IMG/VR virus record: IMGVR_UViG_3300042881_002923
Location: 1 to 22,609 of that record
Origin: a virus
DNA: 22,609 nt
Direction: 5' to 3' (one strand)
Shown here: positions 11,922-22,339 of the stretch, piece by piece
Layout of the letters: the number at the start of each line of letters is the position of its first letter
Position numbering within the stretch: position 1 is the first letter of the stretch
Made by a program: the position numbers and the translations under genes
The notes under the pieces: model-generated
What the model was told of the DNA's origin: nothing
The model's database searches: none
The model's input: the letters and a program-made list of their open reading frames with translations, nothing else

Positions 11922-12503
11922 ATGACGAAACGACTCATTGATAGAATCCGCGAATCTCTTGCAAAAAAAGGATATGCTCCACGTTCACGTGAAGCACGTG
12001 CGTGGCTTAGATCCAAAGTTCCATCACTCAGACCAACAAAAGGTGATCTGATGCGTGATCGTGAACGACTAAGAAACCAGTCTATCATTGGTCGTATGTA
12101 CTTTTATTATTACGATCCAAAGACGAAAGATTCGTTGCCATATTACGACAGGTTCCCATTGGTAATTCCAATAGAACGATACTCAGACGGGTTTTTAGGG
12201 TTGAATCTACATTACATTCACCCAAAGCGACGAATCATTCTTCTAGACAAATTGAGTGTTATTTTGAACAATCGTGATTATGATGAAACAACAAGGTTTA
12301 GAATTAGTTATGATTTTTTGAAAAGAGCATCAAAAATCTACGAAGCAACACCATGCATCAAACGATATTTGTCTGGTCATGTGCAGTCTAGATTTTTAGA
12401 AATTACAGCAGACGAATGGGACATTGCTGCTCTGTTACCAGTAGAATCGTTTGCAAAAGCAACGGCTAGCAAAGTCTGGTCAGAATCAGAGGATAAATTT
12501 TAA
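11922..12503 (+). CDS. Conserved phage protein of unknown function between gp4 and gp54
   Basis: A 193-residue basic protein. The N-terminal 60 residues are strongly Arg/Lys-rich (LIDRIRESLAKKGYAPRSRE, then AWLRSK and RDRERLRNQ), suggesting contact with DNA or an acidic partner. The core reads MYFYYYDPKTKDSLPYYDRF, PLVIPIERYSDGFLGLNLHY and HPKRRIILLDKLSVIL, a pattern I recall from unannotated proteins of T4-like marine phages. No catalytic motif, cysteine pair or membrane segment is obvious. It follows gp4 by seven bases and overlaps the gp54-like gene by one base (TAATG). In T4 the gp4 neighbourhood holds gp2 (DNA end protector) and gp53. A head- or neck-joining role is possible but I cannot assign it. 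Confidence 0.75.
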   Translation: MTKRLIDRIRESLAKKGYAPRSREARAWLRSKVPSLRPTKGDLMRDRERLRNQSIIGRMYFYYYDPKTKDSLPYYDRFPLVIPIERYSDGFLGLNLHYIHPKRRIILLDKLSVILNNRDYDETTRFRISYDFLKRASKIYEATPCIKRYLSGHVQSRFLEITADEWDIAALLPVESFAKATASKVWSESEDKF

Positions 12504-13234
12504 TGACATTTTCACCTAATTCATTTCTATCAAACATCAATGCTAAAGGTGGTTTGGCAAAGCCATCAAGGTATCAAGTAATATTACCTATACCCCCATA
12601 CATAGCACAGTTTGTAAAAAACTCTTTGATAGAAAAAATTTTGAATCTACCAAATTCAATTGTATCAGATGTTAGTCAAGCAATTAATGATGCATTGGGT
12701 TCTGGTGGAGGTGCAAGCAGAAGTGCAAATCCGACAATGACAAGGTACTTAGCCCTACAATGTGAATCAGCAGAACTGCCTGGTAAAAATCTAGTCACAG
12801 ACGATGTAAAGATTTATGGTCCTACATTTAAAGTACCATATCAAACACAATATGCAGAAACAACACTGACTTTTATTTGTACAAACGATTTCTATGAGCG
12901 CAAGTTATTTGAACGCTGGATGGAAGCAATCATGCCCACAGATACAAACAACTTGCGTTTTCCTAAAGGTGAAAACTCAAAGTACATGACTGAGATTACA
13001 GTCAAACAGTATAACGATGATGTTACACAAATTTTTGGTGTAAAACTGATTGATGCATTTCCAATTAGCATTGCAGCACAGCAATTAAGTTGGGGCGACG
13101 ATAACTTTCATCGTCTTGCTATTCAGTTTGCATATCAAAGATACGAAGCACTTACTGAAAGTTCGGTTGATCTTGGCGAAACAATCACAAGTCTTGCACT
13201 TGGTGCCGGCGGCGCAGCATTCAGAGCATTTTAA
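12503..13234 (+). CDS. gp54: Baseplate tail tube initiator gp54 (gp19-like fold)
   Basis: A 243-residue protein (T4 gp54: 320). Gp54 sits on gp48 and presents the first ring on which gp19 tube subunits stack. The fold is tail-tube-like: an N-terminal KPSRYQVILPIP strand, LALQCESAELPGKNL, an IYGPTFKVPYQTQYAETTLT segment, FICTNDFYERKLFERWMEAI followed by MPTDTNNLRFPK, and LAIQFAYQRYEAL. These are conserved in tube and tube-initiator proteins of T4-like marine phages. An Ala/Gly/Ser-rich loop (residues about 60-78) may be flexible. It could be a gp19 paralogue instead; the position just before gp26 and the absence of an adjacent sheath gene favour the initiator. Confidence 0.8.
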   Translation: MTFSPNSFLSNINAKGGLAKPSRYQVILPIPPYIAQFVKNSLIEKILNLPNSIVSDVSQAINDALGSGGGASRSANPTMTRYLALQCESAELPGKNLVTDDVKIYGPTFKVPYQTQYAETTLTFICTNDFYERKLFERWMEAIMPTDTNNLRFPKGENSKYMTEITVKQYNDDVTQIFGVKLIDAFPISIAAQQLSWGDDNFHRLAIQFAYQRYEALTESSVDLGETITSLALGAGGAAFRAF

Positions 13235-13252: not shown

Positions 13253-13975
13253 ATGTTACCTAAAATAGACGTTCCAATTTATGAAACTCATCTAATTTCA
13301 AATGGAGAACTCATTCGGTTCAGACCATTTTTAGTCAAAGAGCAGAAATTATTTTTGATGGCAAGTGAATCTGAAGATCAAAAAGAAACCATTAACACAA
13401 TCAAACAAGTGTTAAGAAACTGTATTCTTGATGAGATTGATGTAGACAAGATGGCTACATTTGATATTGAGTATGTGTTTCTTCAATTAAGAGCAAGATC
13501 GGTTAGTGAAATTGTCAATCTAAAATTTACCTGTAATAATAACATTGACGAAGAAAAGAAGTGTGGTAATACTGTACAAATTGATGTAAACATGTTAGAC
13601 ATCAAGCCAGAATTAAACAAAGATCACAAAAACAAAATTGAAATTACCGATAAAATTGGTATTGTGATGAAGTATCCTACATTCGGTTCAGTTAATTTAG
13701 CTGATCTAAATGCTGAAGACATGGATCAAATTTTAGATGTTATCGTATCATGTATTGATTACATTTACGATGATGAACAAGTTTATCATGCAAAAGATAC
13801 ATCAAAGAAAGAACTATTGGAGTTTGTTGAAAACTTAAAACAGACTGATCTGGAAAAGATGTCTGAATTTTTCAATACACTACCAAAAATAAAGAAAGAC
13901 GTAGATTTCAAATGTAACAAGTGTGGCTATAACGAAACATTACACTTAGAAGGAATTCAAAGTTTTTTCGGATAG
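13253..13975 (+). CDS. gp26: Baseplate hub assembly protein gp26 (0-frame product)
   Basis: A 240-residue protein (T4 gp26: 208) of the T4 baseplate/gp26 family. It begins LPKIDVPIYETHLISNGELI, followed by RFRPFLVKEQKLFLMA, the family's conserved opening. GAGGAT lies 5 bases before the ATG. C94, C104 and the C221-x2-C224 pair near the end (CNKCGYNETL) could form a zinc ribbon. The protein stops as ...GIQSFFG at TAG 13973-13975. Two codons before that stop lies T_TTT_TTC in register, and the -1 frame is open for 66 further codons. I infer that this gene makes both a 240-residue protein and a frameshifted 305-residue protein, like tail assembly chaperones placed before tape measure genes in other phages. 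Confidence 0.88.
   Translation: MLPKIDVPIYETHLISNGELIRFRPFLVKEQKLFLMASESEDQKETINTIKQVLRNCILDEIDVDKMATFDIEYVFLQLRARSVSEIVNLKFTCNNNIDEEKKCGNTVQIDVNMLDIKPELNKDHKNKIEITDKIGIVMKYPTFGSVNLADLNAEDMDQILDVIVSCIDYIYDDEQVYHAKDTSKKELLEFVENLKQTDLEKMSEFFNTLPKIKKDVDFKCNKCGYNETLHLEGIQSFFG
13948..13969 (+). promoter_or_regulatory. Programmed -1 frameshift site: SD-like element plus T_TTT_TTC heptamer
   Basis: The gp26 reading frame is AGT-TTT-TTC-GGA-TAG, so 13963-13969 is T_TTT_TTC, a canonical X_XXY_YYZ slippery heptamer in the correct phase. A Shine-Dalgarno-like AGAAGGA (13948-13954) lies eight bases before it, the kind of upstream stimulator known from bacterial dnaX -1 frameshifting. After slippage the reading continues CGG-ATA-GCA and stays open to TAA 14167-14169. 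No strong downstream hairpin is obvious by eye. Confidence 0.75.
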
Positions 13976-14169
13976 CATTTAGTCATGAAACATTAGGTAA
14001 TTATTTTCAAACTAATTTTGCGTTGATGCAGCATCACAAGTATAGTTTGACTGAATTGGATAATTTGTTACCTTGGGAAAAACAAGTATACATTGATTTG
14101 CTATTGAAGTTTTTAGATGAAGAGACTGAACGAATAAAAGAAGAAAAACGGAGAGCAGGTAAAGGCTAA
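13969..14169 (+). CDS. -1 frame extension of gp26: tail assembly chaperone-like (gp51 position)
   Basis: This 66-codon segment plus stop, read from CGG at 13969, follows directly in the -1 frame of gp26. It fills the otherwise unexplained 193 bases between the gp26 stop and the next ATG. It encodes RIAFSHETLGNYFQTNFALM, a YSLTELDNLLPWEKQVYIDL helix, and a charged tail LDEETERIKEEKRRAGKG, compact and helical like the second halves of tail assembly chaperones. No usable start exists: the first in-frame ATG (14026) has no Shine-Dalgarno and would discard a conserved-looking N-terminal part. The stop overlaps the next ATG by one base (TAATG). Position between gp26 and the tape-measure-like gene parallels T4 gp51, a hub assembly factor, but orthology is not shown. 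Confidence 0.75.
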   Translation, partial: RIAFSHETLGNYFQTNFALMQHHKYSLTELDNLLPWEKQVYIDLLLKFLDEETERIKEEKRRAGKG

Positions 14170-16412
14170 TGGCAGATAACGAAGTAGCGTGGTGGACTAA
14201 AGGTAGATTGCAACGTGGCGCCAACATGGGCGGTGATGCCGCTGTGCTTAAAAAATATTTACCTAACATAGCGCAGAATCTTAATTTCATCAAAATGAAT
14301 CTTTCCTCTCTTGTCAAAATGCAAGAGTCGGATAAAAAAACTCAATATTTTGAAAAACAACGAAGACGATCCGAAGATTATGCTGCAAGATATAAGAAAG
14401 TCAAACCAACAAGAGAAGATAAAAAAGTAGTTTCTGCTGAGAAAAAATCGTTCTTTGATATCATCAAAGACGGGCTTTCAAGCATCTTCAAATTTGCTTT
14501 ACTCGGACTTGTCGCAATAGGTGCATCAAAACTTCTGAGTTTACCAGGAGTTATGGATGGATTGAAAATGTTCTTTAAAAAATTGATTTTAGGTATATCA
14601 GAACTTATTCAAAAAGGAGTTAGTTTTTTAACAGACTTATTGAAAGACAATGAAGTTGTTTCGTCTATAACCAAACTCATCAAATCAGTTTTTGTTTTTA
14701 TTGCTGATGGCATTTCAAGTGCAGCAGATTTTATCAAAAACATTGTAACTGATCCCTCAAATAAAGAAAGTATTGGTAAAGTAATTGTAGCAGTCATTGG
14801 CACGGTGTTTAGTGCAATGTTATCCTCAATTGATATTGTTGGAAAAACTTTAGGTCAAAATCAAGAAGCCATAAAAAATGGTATCGTCACAATCTTTACA
14901 AAGATTGCAGAAGGAATAGTAGGCGCAATTAAGTTTACAGATTCACTCTTAAAAGATCCAAAGTTTATTGAGTCTGTGGTAAAAATATATGATGCATTAA
15001 AAGAATTTATTGGCAACATTTTAAACACTACTATAGGCACAATTCCAGGAATTGGTCCAGTGAATCTGAAGATGGCATTAATAACGTTAGGTGGTGTAGT
15101 CGTATTAACGCAACTTGCTTTATCTTATTTCATGGGAAGATTGATTGCTGGATCAGTTGCTAGAGGTATGAAAAGTGATGGAGTTGGTGTAGTTGGTGGC
15201 AAATACGGTAAGGCAGCCGCCGCTGTCAATTTGGGTCTTGGTGCTGCTGCTGGATATTTTGCTTATCAGTCTGTTGAGCAATTCAAGGAGGCACAAAAAG
15301 CAGCAGAAAAAGATATGATGGAAAGAGTTGCGGCTGAAAGAATGAAAATGCCAGCAGATCAAGTATCACCAACAAAAATTCCATCAGTACCTTCTACAGT
15401 TCAATCTTCTTCTGCAATGTATTATGATCCCTCAAAAGGCGGTAACGCAATTAGAGATGTTATTGGCGCTGGTGAAGGCGGTAGAACTGGATACAATGCA
15501 ACGTATGGATTTGGTTATGGCAAACAAGATCCAAGAATAGAAGAAATGTTTGGTACTGGCAGAAAACTAACAGACTTATCAATCAACGAAGTTTTGTACT
15601 ACACAACAAAAAGAGGTGCAAATCAAGGTGCTGTAGGTAAATATCAGTTTATGCCTGATACGTTAAGAGGCTTGGTTTCAAAAGCATCTGGTTACGGAAT
15701 TAATTTTGAAACTAAATTTACTCCAGAAATTCAAGATAAGCTATACGGTTTGTTCTCACAAAAAAACGTTGAAGTGTTAAAGAAAAATAATATTCCTATT
15801 ACACCCGAAAATATTCACTTAGCACATTCAGTTGGTGCTGGCGGTGCAATAAAGTTGCTTACACATAAAGATCAGAACGCAAACATCTTAGAAGTTCTCG
15901 GTCTAAAAGGTGCTGAAGCAAAAACGAATCCACATCTTAACACCTCAATAGCAAATTATAGAGCAACATTGGCTGGTAAATACGGCGGGCAAGGTGGCAC
16001 CACGTTAGCATCTACAAAACCATCTTTAAATAATGCAATGACTAATGTAATGCCTCCAGAAGGTCAAAATTATTCAATGCAAAATGTTAATGCGAATGTT
16101 CCTTCTCCTGCGCCTTCTAATACAAAACCGCCGCCAGAGCCTCCACCCACACTTGGAGAAACACTGGCAAATTTAATATCAACTGGTCCGTCTGGAAACT
16201 TTTTAAAACAACTAGACGAAATGACTGGAGGTAAATTAGGTATTTCTTCTGGTGATTTAGCAAAAGCACTGAGAACAAGAAATCTATTTGAAAATGTTGG
16301 AGATGTAATTGAAGGCTCAACCAATCTAGCATCAAGTTCTTCAATAGAATTTTCTGGACCAATACCTGGAGTGTTTGACGAAACACTTCTAAGTAAACTT
16401 TCAATGGCGTAA
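14169..16412 (+). CDS. Tape-measure-like tail protein with lytic transglycosylase/muramidase-like domain
   Basis: A 747-residue protein directly after the chaperone-like gene, the usual place of a tape measure (T4 gp29 or equivalent). Residues 1-95 are basic and helical. Residues about 95-375 contain many hydrophobic and amphipathic helices (for example FKFALLGLVAIGASKLLSL and ALITLGGVVVLTQLALSYFM), which tape measures use to enter the membrane. Residues about 425-590 look like a wall-cleaving domain: AGEGG with candidate catalytic Glu436, YGFGYG, LTDLSINEVLYYTTKRGA and GAVGKYQFMPDTL (G490-L498), resembling GH104-type lytic transglycosylases such as lambda R and lysozyme-like domains. Then a Pro-rich linker and a C-terminal LDEMTGGKLGISSGDLAKAL motif shared with the next gene. 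The enzyme class is inferred from motifs only. Confidence 0.8.
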   Translation: MADNEVAWWTKGRLQRGANMGGDAAVLKKYLPNIAQNLNFIKMNLSSLVKMQESDKKTQYFEKQRRRSEDYAARYKKVKPTREDKKVVSAEKKSFFDIIKDGLSSIFKFALLGLVAIGASKLLSLPGVMDGLKMFFKKLILGISELIQKGVSFLTDLLKDNEVVSSITKLIKSVFVFIADGISSAADFIKNIVTDPSNKESIGKVIVAVIGTVFSAMLSSIDIVGKTLGQNQEAIKNGIVTIFTKIAEGIVGAIKFTDSLLKDPKFIESVVKIYDALKEFIGNILNTTIGTIPGIGPVNLKMALITLGGVVVLTQLALSYFMGRLIAGSVARGMKSDGVGVVGGKYGKAAAAVNLGLGAAAGYFAYQSVEQFKEAQKAAEKDMMERVAAERMKMPADQVSPTKIPSVPSTVQSSSAMYYDPSKGGNAIRDVIGAGEGGRTGYNATYGFGYGKQDPRIEEMFGTGRKLTDLSINEVLYYTTKRGANQGAVGKYQFMPDTLRGLVSKASGYGINFETKFTPEIQDKLYGLFSQKNVEVLKKNNIPITPENIHLAHSVGAGGAIKLLTHKDQNANILEVLGLKGAEAKTNPHLNTSIANYRATLAGKYGGQGGTTLASTKPSLNNAMTNVMPPEGQNYSMQNVNANVPSPAPSNTKPPPEPPPTLGETLANLISTGPSGNFLKQLDEMTGGKLGISSGDLAKALRTRNLFENVGDVIEGSTNLASSSSIEFSGPIPGVFDETLLSKLSMA

Positions 16413-16413
16413 A

Positions 16414-18960
16414 ATGACACCTCAAACACCCATAGCAGCAAAAAGAGGCGATTTAAATTCAGTTTTACCTGGTATTGCTAAAGATTTTGAAGCAATAAAA
16501 ATAGGATTCACAAAACTTGTTCAGTTAAAGAAACAAGAGGGTGCAATTCGTTCATCTGAGGGAGTAAGACAGAGACAACTTGCATACAAAGAAAAATTCA
16601 GTAAAGTCAAAATAGATAAAATTGATCCGAGAAAAAGAACTTTAGAAGAACATACAAAAGGATTTTTCTCAACACTTAAATCAATATCCGGTGTTTTAGG
16701 TGGCATCTTTCTAATCCTTGGTGCTGCCGGTATAGCAAAGATGATTTTTTCATCAGACGCAGGTAAGTTTTTAGGTAAATTTTTATCTGCCATCTTTACA
16801 GGGTTGATTGACTTAGCAAAGTCTGCCATCAACATAGTACAAATTTTATTTCGTGACATAGAAATAAAGTCTTCATTTTTTAAAACGATAAGTGTGATTT
16901 TTAAATTAATTGGTGAATCTTTACTCACCGCTTTTGGTATATTTAAAAGTTTTCTATCAGACAGTAGCGTTATAACAGCTATTTTAAATACTATTAAAAA
17001 TGTTTTTTCTGCAATCTTTAACTCTATAGAATCAATAGCATCTATTGTTGCGGATATCTTTATTCAAAATACAGAAAAAATAAAAAACGGATTAATTGAT
17101 TTAGTTTCTAAGATTATTGATGTAATAATTCCCATACTAAGCATAACTTCTCAAGCCTTTAAAGACTTAATGAGTAATGAAAAATTCATGGGAAGTTTGA
17201 AGGACATTGCAAAAGGTGTTGTTGATTTAATTGTTTCTGTGTTCAAAATAGATTATATTGATACTAAAACAGGAGAACAAAAAAGTGTCGCTGTTGAAAT
17301 ACTCAAAATAATAGGAGAAGCAGGGATTGCTTATTTGGCTTTTTTGGGGCTTAAAGCAAGATTGATAGAAGCGGGTGCAGCAATTTCTGCGACAAACTTT
17401 AGCAAAGCGGGACCGTGTGATTGTGGCGCTATAGAGCCATCGGACGACAAAGAAAAAAGGGACGACAAAGAAAAAAGGCGCAGGAGAAGGAACACAAGAA
17501 GAACACCGAGAAGTGTGCCGGGAGGTCGTATGCCTAGTGGTGGGGGTGGTGGACCTGTTTCTCCTGAACGATTAAGTCAAATAGAAAAAGCAAGAGGAAC
17601 AAAAGCAAGCAGAATGGAAAAATTAAAATATCTACTTGAAAAAAAATGGAGACAAATTGGTTTGCTTGCTGAAAAATTTAGATACAGTAAAATAGGTCAA
17701 AGTAAAATCATAGACTTAACGATAAGATTATTATATCGTTTGGGTGTAAAGATTGGTGAAACACGTTTGTTTATTATACTGTCTACTCTTGTTGCCGGAG
17801 CAGTTGCAAGTGGAACAGGTTTTGCATCAGTAATAGGAATTGCTATTTTGGCTGCAAATCTATACTTTGCATATGACATTATAATTCTTCTATTGGAAAA
17901 TATTGATGAATTAAACAAAGATATTGAAGATGAAGAGAAAAAATCAGAATCACCGCCACCGAAAGTAGATACATCTCCTATAGCAACACAAGCAGATGTT
18001 CGTAGAATTGATAATGCAATTGAAGAAAATAAAGTATCAACTACATCATCGGTACCTGAACCAGCAAAATCAACAACACCTTCACCATCATCAGCGGCAG
18101 AAGTTTTAGCCAGACAGAGAGAGATGGCTGGAACAGAAAGTGTCACACCAGAAAGAACAATGAGCAGTTATTCATATGAAGCAACAGCGGCACTAAAAAA
18201 TAAAATGAAAAAAGGTGATGTTATAGCAGACCCGCATGAAGCGGGTACTGATGTGTTGGCACAGAACATTTCAAGTTTAATACCTAGTTTTGGATTATTT
18301 ACTGCTTTTGATGATGCTTATCATTCCAAAATGCATCCAAATTCAAAGCATAATTCTGGTTTGGCGATTGACTTCACAATAAATGGTGGTAAAGGTGAAT
18401 ACGCACGTGCAGCGTCAGCACTGAAAAAACATTTACTTGATGCTGGATTAAATATGTCTGAATTTTTTGTTCTTGACGAAGCCAATTATCCTAATAAGTA
18501 CACGACAGGCGATCACATTCATTTTCAATTTCAATCAAAAGAAGCAGCGGCAAAATACAGAAGCAGATATTCAAATATGCCATTAACTGCATTTGCAAAA
18601 GATACTTCACCTGCTGGCGGTACACCATTTACTTTACCAGCACCACAAAACAGTGTGGTACAACAAGCAGAAAAAGAAAAAGAAGAAAAGCAAAGTTTTG
18701 CTAGTTTGATGTTTGGCGATTTGACTAAAGGTATGGCAGCACTTGATCAAATGACTGGTGGTAAGTTAGGATTAATGTCCGATGAGATGAGAACTGCAAT
18801 GAGAACTCTTGAAGATGAAGCAAATAAAGGTGGATCATTCCTTGATTTGTCTACAACTGTTATTTCAAATAAAACCGAAAATAAAAATATGGGATACTCA
18901 ACAGTTCAACAAACCAATGAAAGCATTTTATCTACGATTCTAAATCGTCAGTACGGATAA
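16414..18960 (+). CDS. Second tape-measure-like tail protein with M15 peptidase-like domain
   Basis: An 848-residue paralogue of the preceding protein, one base downstream. Shared layout: helical basic N-terminus (VLPGIAKDFEAIKIGFTKLV), many hydrophobic helices (about residues 85-330 and 435-490), and a C-terminal LDQMTGGKLGLMSDEMRTAM motif. The enzyme domain differs. Residues about 600-720 carry H646-N-S-G-L-A-I-D653-F and G-D-H701-I-H703-F, the zinc ligand layout of M15 (VanY/D-Ala-D-Ala peptidase and phage L-Ala-D-Glu peptidase) enzymes. Residues 334-375 contain an unusual CDC, a duplicated DDKEKR and an Arg-rich run. It is the last gene of the plus block, ending against the terminator. 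It would cut peptide crossbridges during DNA injection; this is inferred from motifs. Confidence 0.8.
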   Translation: MTPQTPIAAKRGDLNSVLPGIAKDFEAIKIGFTKLVQLKKQEGAIRSSEGVRQRQLAYKEKFSKVKIDKIDPRKRTLEEHTKGFFSTLKSISGVLGGIFLILGAAGIAKMIFSSDAGKFLGKFLSAIFTGLIDLAKSAINIVQILFRDIEIKSSFFKTISVIFKLIGESLLTAFGIFKSFLSDSSVITAILNTIKNVFSAIFNSIESIASIVADIFIQNTEKIKNGLIDLVSKIIDVIIPILSITSQAFKDLMSNEKFMGSLKDIAKGVVDLIVSVFKIDYIDTKTGEQKSVAVEILKIIGEAGIAYLAFLGLKARLIEAGAAISATNFSKAGPCDCGAIEPSDDKEKRDDKEKRRRRRNTRRTPRSVPGGRMPSGGGGGPVSPERLSQIEKARGTKASRMEKLKYLLEKKWRQIGLLAEKFRYSKIGQSKIIDLTIRLLYRLGVKIGETRLFIILSTLVAGAVASGTGFASVIGIAILAANLYFAYDIIILLLENIDELNKDIEDEEKKSESPPPKVDTSPIATQADVRRIDNAIEENKVSTTSSVPEPAKSTTPSPSSAAEVLARQREMAGTESVTPERTMSSYSYEATAALKNKMKKGDVIADPHEAGTDVLAQNISSLIPSFGLFTAFDDAYHSKMHPNSKHNSGLAIDFTINGGKGEYARAASALKKHLLDAGLNMSEFFVLDEANYPNKYTTGDHIHFQFQSKEAAAKYRSRYSNMPLTAFAKDTSPAGGTPFTLPAPQNSVVQQAEKEKEEKQSFASLMFGDLTKGMAALDQMTGGKLGLMSDEMRTAMRTLEDEANKGGSFLDLSTTVISNKTENKNMGYSTVQQTNESILSTILNRQYG
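17443..17478 (+). repeat. Perfect 18-bp tandem duplication (DDKEKR x2)
   Basis: GACGACAAAGAAAAAAGG occurs twice head to tail, in frame, encoding DDKEKRDDKEKR (residues 344-355) just before an Arg-rich segment of the second tape-measure-like protein. Two identical copies suggest a recent duplication by slippage in a linker that tolerates length change. Confidence 0.9.
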
Positions 18961-21787: not shown

Positions 21788-22339
21788 TCATGAATTTCTT
21801 TTTACCTTATTGTAAAATAAATGTCTACCTATTTGCACAGTGTATCTCATATTATTCCACATTGGTTTCACATAATCTGCGTGAAAAAACAATGCTCCTT
21901 TTGTTGGATCTTTAAATGTTTCAGGATACAAATAAAACTTCAAAGCCATATCAGTTATCTTATTATATACTGAATTGTTATCAACTGTCAATAATTTTCT
22001 ATCAATCATTGCCTTCGCTCTGCTCTCACAATACCAAGAAAATTGGCAAACTGCACCAACTCTCTGTTTCACCACTCCGCAATATGAATCGGGAAATGCA
22101 CCAGACTGTGTGCGGTTGTGTGTGACAAATGCAACGGCTAGTTGACCTTTTTCGGGTTCCGCTCCTGCCTCAAAATACATGTTTTGTGCAAGACATTCAA
22201 CTTCTTGTCGTGCAAATGGTGCCAAATCTTCTAATTGAATTTTTGGTGCAATCGGTATTTCTACTTGTGCTGCCGCATGTCCAGTATAAACAATAAATGC
22301 TGCAAATAAACTACAAATCGTTAGTGTGATGTAACGCAT
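21788..22339 (-). CDS. Exported SleB-type cell wall hydrolase
   Basis: A 183-residue protein with an N-terminal signal peptide: MRY, then a hydrophobic run ITLTICSLFAAFIVYTG and HAAA-Q at residues 21-25 as a plausible signal peptidase I site. The mature part matches the Hydrolase_2/SleB family: LAQNMYFEAGAEPEKGQLAV (candidate catalytic Glu57), AFVTHNRTQSGAFPDSYCGV, VCQFSWYCESR and GALFFHADYVKPMW. These enzymes act as lytic transglycosylases or amidases on peptidoglycan. C49, C87, C98 and C104 could pair as disulfides in the periplasm. AGGAGA lies six bases before the ATG. A stable UUCG hairpin lies in its leader. It may be the phage endolysin, secreted by the host Sec system, or serve wall remodelling. 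Confidence 0.88.
   Translation of the reverse strand: MRYITLTICSLFAAFIVYTGHAAAQVEIPIAPKIQLEDLAPFARQEVECLAQNMYFEAGAEPEKGQLAVAFVTHNRTQSGAFPDSYCGVVKQRVGAVCQFSWYCESRAKAMIDRKLLTVDNNSVYNKITDMALKFYLYPETFKDPTKGALFFHADYVKPMWNNMRYTVQIGRHLFYNKVKRNS

Follow-up and report, generated by a model that had tools for sequence, protein, structure and literature searches.

The gp26 locus of the contig

We analysed a 22.6 kb viral contig from an uncultured T4-like virus (the window, meaning the whole stretch of 22,609 nucleotides). gp26 lies on its + strand at 13253..13975, and both ends were read directly from the sequence (start codon ATG at 13253; stop codon TAG at 13973-13975). Normal translation would give a protein of 240 amino acids, which is a putative short tail assembly chaperone (TAC-N) and matches Pfam PF12322 (T4_baseplate, E = 2.7e-63) and phrog_150 (baseplate hub, E = 1.1e-69). 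The 3' end of the gene reads AGT-TTT-TTC-GGA-TAG, which includes the slippery heptamer T_TTT_TTC (13963..13969, + strand) in the exact X_XXY_YYZ phase, with a single sense codon (GGA) between the heptamer and the stop. The sequence AGAAGGA (13948..13954, + strand), which resembles a Shine-Dalgarno (SD) site, lies 8 nt upstream of the heptamer and is probably a stimulator, as judged from its sequence and its predicted anti-SD pairing.

In the -1 frame, 66 codons can be read without a stop, from CGG (13969) to GGC, followed by TAA at 14167-14169. This extension (13969..14169, + strand; TAC-C) is called gp51 in cyanophage annotations and matches phrog_634 ("baseplate hub assembly catalyst", E = 4.7e-26). 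The predicted fusion (TAC-NC) has 239 + 66 = 305 amino acids, with the junction ...GIQSFF-RIAFSHE.... A first-pass annotation, made from the letters alone, had pointed out the heptamer in slippery phase near the stop, the SD-like AGAAGGA eight bases upstream, and the 66 open codons, and we confirmed all three. It also described the extension as ending TAATG into a tape-measure-like gene. The overlap is there (the last base of the TAA is the first base of the next gene's ATG, at 14169), but the tape-measure part is less certain. The next gene (14169..16412, + strand) encodes 747 amino acids and matches the tape measure families phrog_4200 and phrog_58 (5.7e-6 and 1e-5) as well as the lysozyme or transglycosylase families phrog_90/4067 (about 5e-9 to 9e-9). 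These weak matches, together with its position, suggest that it may be a tape measure or hub protein.

Directly upstream of gp26 is a tail tube gene (12503..13234, + strand; phrog_45, E = 3.9e-39), whose product's match to Phage_T4_gp19 falls under that Pfam family's cut-off. A tail tube gene is the usual neighbour of a chaperone gene, and gp26 has the tail tube gene on one side and the weakly tape-measure-like gene on the other.

We also note that the genes at 14169-16412 and 16414-18960 are adjacent paralogues in their N-terminal parts (28% identity over 272 amino acids, E = 6e-22). Both are tape-measure-like; one matches lysozyme/transglycosylase and the other weakly matches an endolysin family in its C-terminal part. 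Farther along, the minus strand encodes a cell wall hydrolase (21788-22339; Hydrolase_2, E = 3e-21), near genes for a late-transcription coactivator and the gp59 helicase loader.

Conservation of the heptamer and of the -1 frame

A lone in-phase heptamer in one window is weak evidence, because the 7,344 codons of the whole window contain 62 in-phase XXXYYYZ sites, of which 5 are TTTTTTN. We gathered relatives by three IMG/VR scans and from annotated phages. There are 246 loci with a full gp26 end (the window included, Ackermannviridae kept apart), which reduce to 114 representatives at <90% identity. They span cyanophages, Methylophilales phages, Emmerichvirinae, and Rhizobium phages, and some representatives are only 20-30% identical to the window's protein. 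TTTTTT is present in the same phase, 0-2 codons ahead of the stop, in 246/246 loci. The base that follows varies (C in 192 loci, A in 28, T in 24, and G in 2), so that a change of the heptamer's last base exchanges Phe for Leu and leaves the slippery hexamer intact. The first Phe codon of the heptamer is TTT in 114/114 representatives, while elsewhere 26% of Phe codons are TTC. Across the three codons of the heptamer, the ratio of observed to expected synonymous variation is 0.12, 0.00, and 0.04. This is the gene's lowest stretch of synonymous variation, the start region excepted, and the values are normal just upstream. As the heptamer and its phase are kept in every locus, chance is untenable. 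The first-pass annotation had proposed conservation of the heptamer and of the -1 phase as one way to check its idea, and the alignment over relatives bears it out.

The full -1 extension is present in 236 of the 246 loci, and the other loci end at a contig end. Among the 114 representatives, it is 56-69 codons long in the relatives and has no in-frame stops apart from contig ends. (The +1 frame was rejected as a candidate: it closes about 7-64 nt from the stop in the loci examined.) We computed pN/pS over 644 pairs and obtained 0.14 for the part of the extension ahead of a conserved Met, 0.15 for the part after it, and 0.29 for gp26. The other two frames of the extension have pN/pS above 1.2 and contain stops. 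Residue conservation begins directly after the slip (R/L-I-A-L...). By these measures, the extension evolves as a protein, and purifying selection acts on the -1 frame starting with the first codon after the slip.

With only one genome to judge by, this arrangement could not be told from a decayed remnant, in which a fused gp26-gp51 was split by a frameshift mutation and the -1 frame is passively open. But strong purifying selection in the -1 frame extends to lineages whose protein shares only 20-30% identity with that of the window, and the invariant heptamer likewise speaks against decay. The pN/pS of 0.14 refutes this explanation, and we give it almost no chance of being correct.

A second patch of low synonymous variation lies at columns 27-32 of the extension (the HHKYSLT codons), mainly in cyanophages. 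Several codons there are at about 0.2-0.5 of expectation, and no local helix accounts for the dip.

Another way to express the extension would be as a separate gene, gp51, of about 44 amino acids whose start is an ATG inside the extension, which is how Syn1 and other cyanophages are annotated. GenBank does list gp51 as its own gene (Syn1; Melnitz), and the internal Met is found in 96 of 114 relatives. However, it is replaced by I, V, or L in the others, and the roughly 20 residues ahead of it are as constrained as those after it. The window's first -1 frame ATG is at 14026, 19 codons into the extension, and its SD pairing is +2.0 kcal/mol, as compared to -6.1 kcal/mol for the gp26 start and -6.6 kcal/mol for the next gene. 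We found no Shine-Dalgarno site at extension start codons among the relatives (mean anti-SD energy of +0.16 kcal/mol at the first ATG or GTG). A separate gene would also leave the invariant heptamer without an explanation. Given the selection upstream of the Met, the missing SD, and the unconserved Met, we rejected an independent start, which is very unlikely. The first-pass annotation's view that the -1 reading frame has no plausible start of its own, with ATG and Shine-Dalgarno, holds for the window and for its relatives.

In Syn1 (locus L081, 3262-3393) and Melnitz (locus L082, 3244-3387), the gene listed as gp51 or "baseplate hub assembly" covers only part of the frameshift extension and was called from an internal start codon. 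Gene lists, structural models, or expression clones built on such a gp51 would thus be incomplete.

The -1 product might also arise by transcriptional slippage, in which the polymerase inserts one U too many at the T run. The slip site is a T run, and this run is longer in Melnitz-type phages. But in most relatives it has only 6 Ts, which is short for polymerase slippage. Also, the run keeps one reading phase in all 246 loci; tandem tRNA slippage needs this phase and polymerase slippage does not. We consider slippage by the polymerase to be highly improbable. Ribosomal slippage fits the data, because the extension lacks a start of its own (neither an SD nor a conserved Met) and because the T run is short and bound to one phase. 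Programmed -1 frameshifting at the end of gp26, as the first-pass annotation had proposed, is strongly supported by the comparative evidence: the invariant heptamer and phase, the selection in the -1 frame, the suppression of synonymous changes, and the lack of an alternative start.

Candidate stimulators and a proposed mechanism

Upstream of the heptamer, predicted anti-SD pairing averages -5.9 kcal/mol in the 114 relatives, as compared to -1.2 kcal/mol at random gene positions. This is stronger than at gp26's own starts (mean of -4.2 kcal/mol). A conserved Glu-Gly accounts for part of the pairing. Compared with synonymous recodings, cyanophages have a clear excess (-5.4 vs. -4.0 kcal/mol), and Melnitz-type phages also show one. 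In the window's group, the SD-like site is no stronger than the amino acids force (no excess over synonymous recoding). Among the relatives, the Glu-Gly codons vary freely at synonymous positions. These two results speak against the SD-like site as a selected element in the window's group.

Downstream of the heptamer, RNAalifold predicted no structure in the window's group. The best candidate helices in this group were not above codon permutation, so we found no conserved downstream stem-loop or pseudoknot there. Cyanophages can form a 9-bp stem-loop that begins 7 nt 3' of the heptamer (14 to 39 nt from the heptamer start; loci L095-L174). It is at the classical position for a stimulator and 84% of its cells are paired, but its covariation is no better than in shuffles, so its role as a stimulator is suggestive. 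The window's group lacks this type of stem-loop. In Melnitz-type phages, a near-perfect long-range helix can be drawn that pairs the beginning of the extension with the PWER codons, but these codons hardly vary. The SD-stimulated -1 frameshift of the dnaX type, with an SD-like site about 10 nt upstream and a stem-loop downstream, is a possible but uncertain model: an SD-like site is present in the window, and the stem-loop, without an excess of covariation, is present in cyanophages only.

We propose that most ribosomes terminate at the TAG at 13973, which yields the short chaperone, gp26 (TAC-N). A smaller share may pause as the internal SD-like site pairs with 16S rRNA, and would then slip by -1 on T_TTT_TTC, with both tRNAs re-pairing in the -1 frame. 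These ribosomes would read the 66 further codons and make the 305-amino-acid TAC-NC, whose helical C-terminal domain is known as gp51 elsewhere. Slippage would presumably set the ratio of short to long forms. By analogy with lambda, many short and few long chaperones might coat the tape measure protein encoded by the next gene, the rare long form might bring in tail tube subunits via its helical extension, and both forms would depart from the finished tail. Overall, we think it very probable that this one gene yields both a short and a long chaperone through ribosome slippage on the T run.

The two products and their relation to known systems

The assignments of gp26 to the T4_baseplate family and of the extension to gp51 are supported by profile comparisons, in line with the gp26/gp51 identification in the first-pass annotation. 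A profile of the short form matches T4 gp26 (3.7e-24), and a profile of the extension matches residues 206-243 of T4 gp51 (3e-7) and the C-termini of gp51 from RB43 (8e-10) and AS-gz (1.6e-12); these values are from small search sets. The fusion profile spans T4 gp51 end to end (positions 23-279 of 296), and the end of T4 gp26 coincides with the slip column of this profile. T4 gp26 and gp51 are paralogues (BLASTP, 2e-6).

The AlphaFold model of gp26 has a pLDDT of 86.9. When we compared it to the PDB with Foldseek, the HK97 tail assembly chaperone (2ob9_B; probability 0.72, with a poor E value of 0.99) and an uncharacterised protein (3fgx; probability 0.77, with a poor E value of 1.2) were at ranks 3 and 4, and yqbN (3klu) was at rank 16. 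The model hints at a fold like that of the HK97 tail assembly chaperone. The extension is modelled as helical (pLDDT of 74), and a fold search with its 66 amino acids found no match. Nor did a sequence search of the PDB for solved chaperones. The first-pass annotation had suggested comparing the extension with phage tail chaperones and with T4 gp51; the latter was recovered and the former were not. The fold ranks, together with a tail tube gene upstream and a tape-measure-like gene downstream, support a tail assembly chaperone pair. We are confident that this T4-like myovirus carries a chaperone gene for tail assembly of the lambda G/GT type, with a short form and a 305-amino-acid long form that would be made by ribosomal -1 slippage.

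Chaperone frameshifts in long-tailed phages were reportedly described by Xu, Hendrix and Duda in 2004. As in lambda G/GT and P2 E/E', the window has short and long chaperones from one gene, by predicted -1 slippage near the 3' end, and in the same setting beside tail tube and tape measure genes. It differs from the lambda G/GT type in its heptamer, T_TTT_TTC, and we detected no sequence similarity to solved chaperones. For T4-like phages, Vladimirov, Gautam and Davidson (Virology 2022, 566:9-15) are said to have identified 26/51 as the chaperone pair and to have found that frameshifting appears conserved in several T4-like groups, with T4 using another mechanism. The first-pass annotation had implied that such a finding would be new for T4-like phages, but the pair had already been named and this kind of finding is already known (Vladimirov et al. 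2022). The window shares the gp26/gp51 family with that system, and its uncultured lineage is a further member. PMC12846349 credits Vladimirov et al. 2022 with frameshift signals of the poly-T kind in the TAC-N genes of T4-like phages, and PMC10885494, citing the same work, states that in some T4-like phages the short and the fused long form have a gene each. Atkins et al. 2016 describe G-T frameshifting as conserved in long-tailed phages "except T4" (PMC5009743). Our literature search for ribosome profiling of a T4-like cyanophage found none. We extend the published claim to a large, uncultured lineage and back it with a very strong record of conservation; what is new here is the breadth and statistics of that conservation, the differences between lineages in stimulators, and the recognition of annotated gp51 genes as fragments.

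Phage Adele (Vandenendeviridae/Andersonviridae) belongs to other phage families. As described in PMC12846349, it shares a conserved -1 frame and an invariant GTTTTT, and its downstream ORF is annotated as a separate gene; the likeness to the window is by this description, not by sequence. Separately, gp26 of the Ackermannviridae type and of Cygsa01 (loci L086-L092 and L259) has a homologous -1 extension with the motif PWH, and the overlap sites there are CTTTTC, CTTTTT, or ATTTTC, which are not classical heptamers.

In T4, the pair is encoded by two divergent genes on opposite strands, in contrast to the window's one gene with slippage. The first-pass annotation was right that T4 has separate genes, but they do not correspond to the fusion's two parts: T4 gp26, which ends at the slip column, represents the short form, and T4 gp51 is the complete long form (chaperone domain plus extension). 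Because gp51 can be aligned over the entire fusion and gp26 reaches no farther than the slip point, we conclude that in T4 a second gene supplies the long form. RB43 has gp51 and then gp26 in tandem, with an 8-bp overlap (locus L261, 2501-3244 and 3237-3794), which is possibly a trace of duplication. A broader scenario, which we think is about equally likely to be right or wrong, is that T_TTT_TTN slippage is ancestral across the T4-like phages (cyanophages, Methylophilales phages, Emmerichvirinae, Rhizobium phages, and the window's group) and that the branch of T4, RB43, and AS-gz escaped it by a gene duplication that fixed the long form as gp51, with the RB43 tandem as its trace. Stimulators would then be lineage-specific, with the SD-like site alone in the window's group and a stem-loop in addition in cyanophages. 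The comparison with T4 illustrates concretely how either ribosome slippage or gene duplication can lead to one and the same pair of products.
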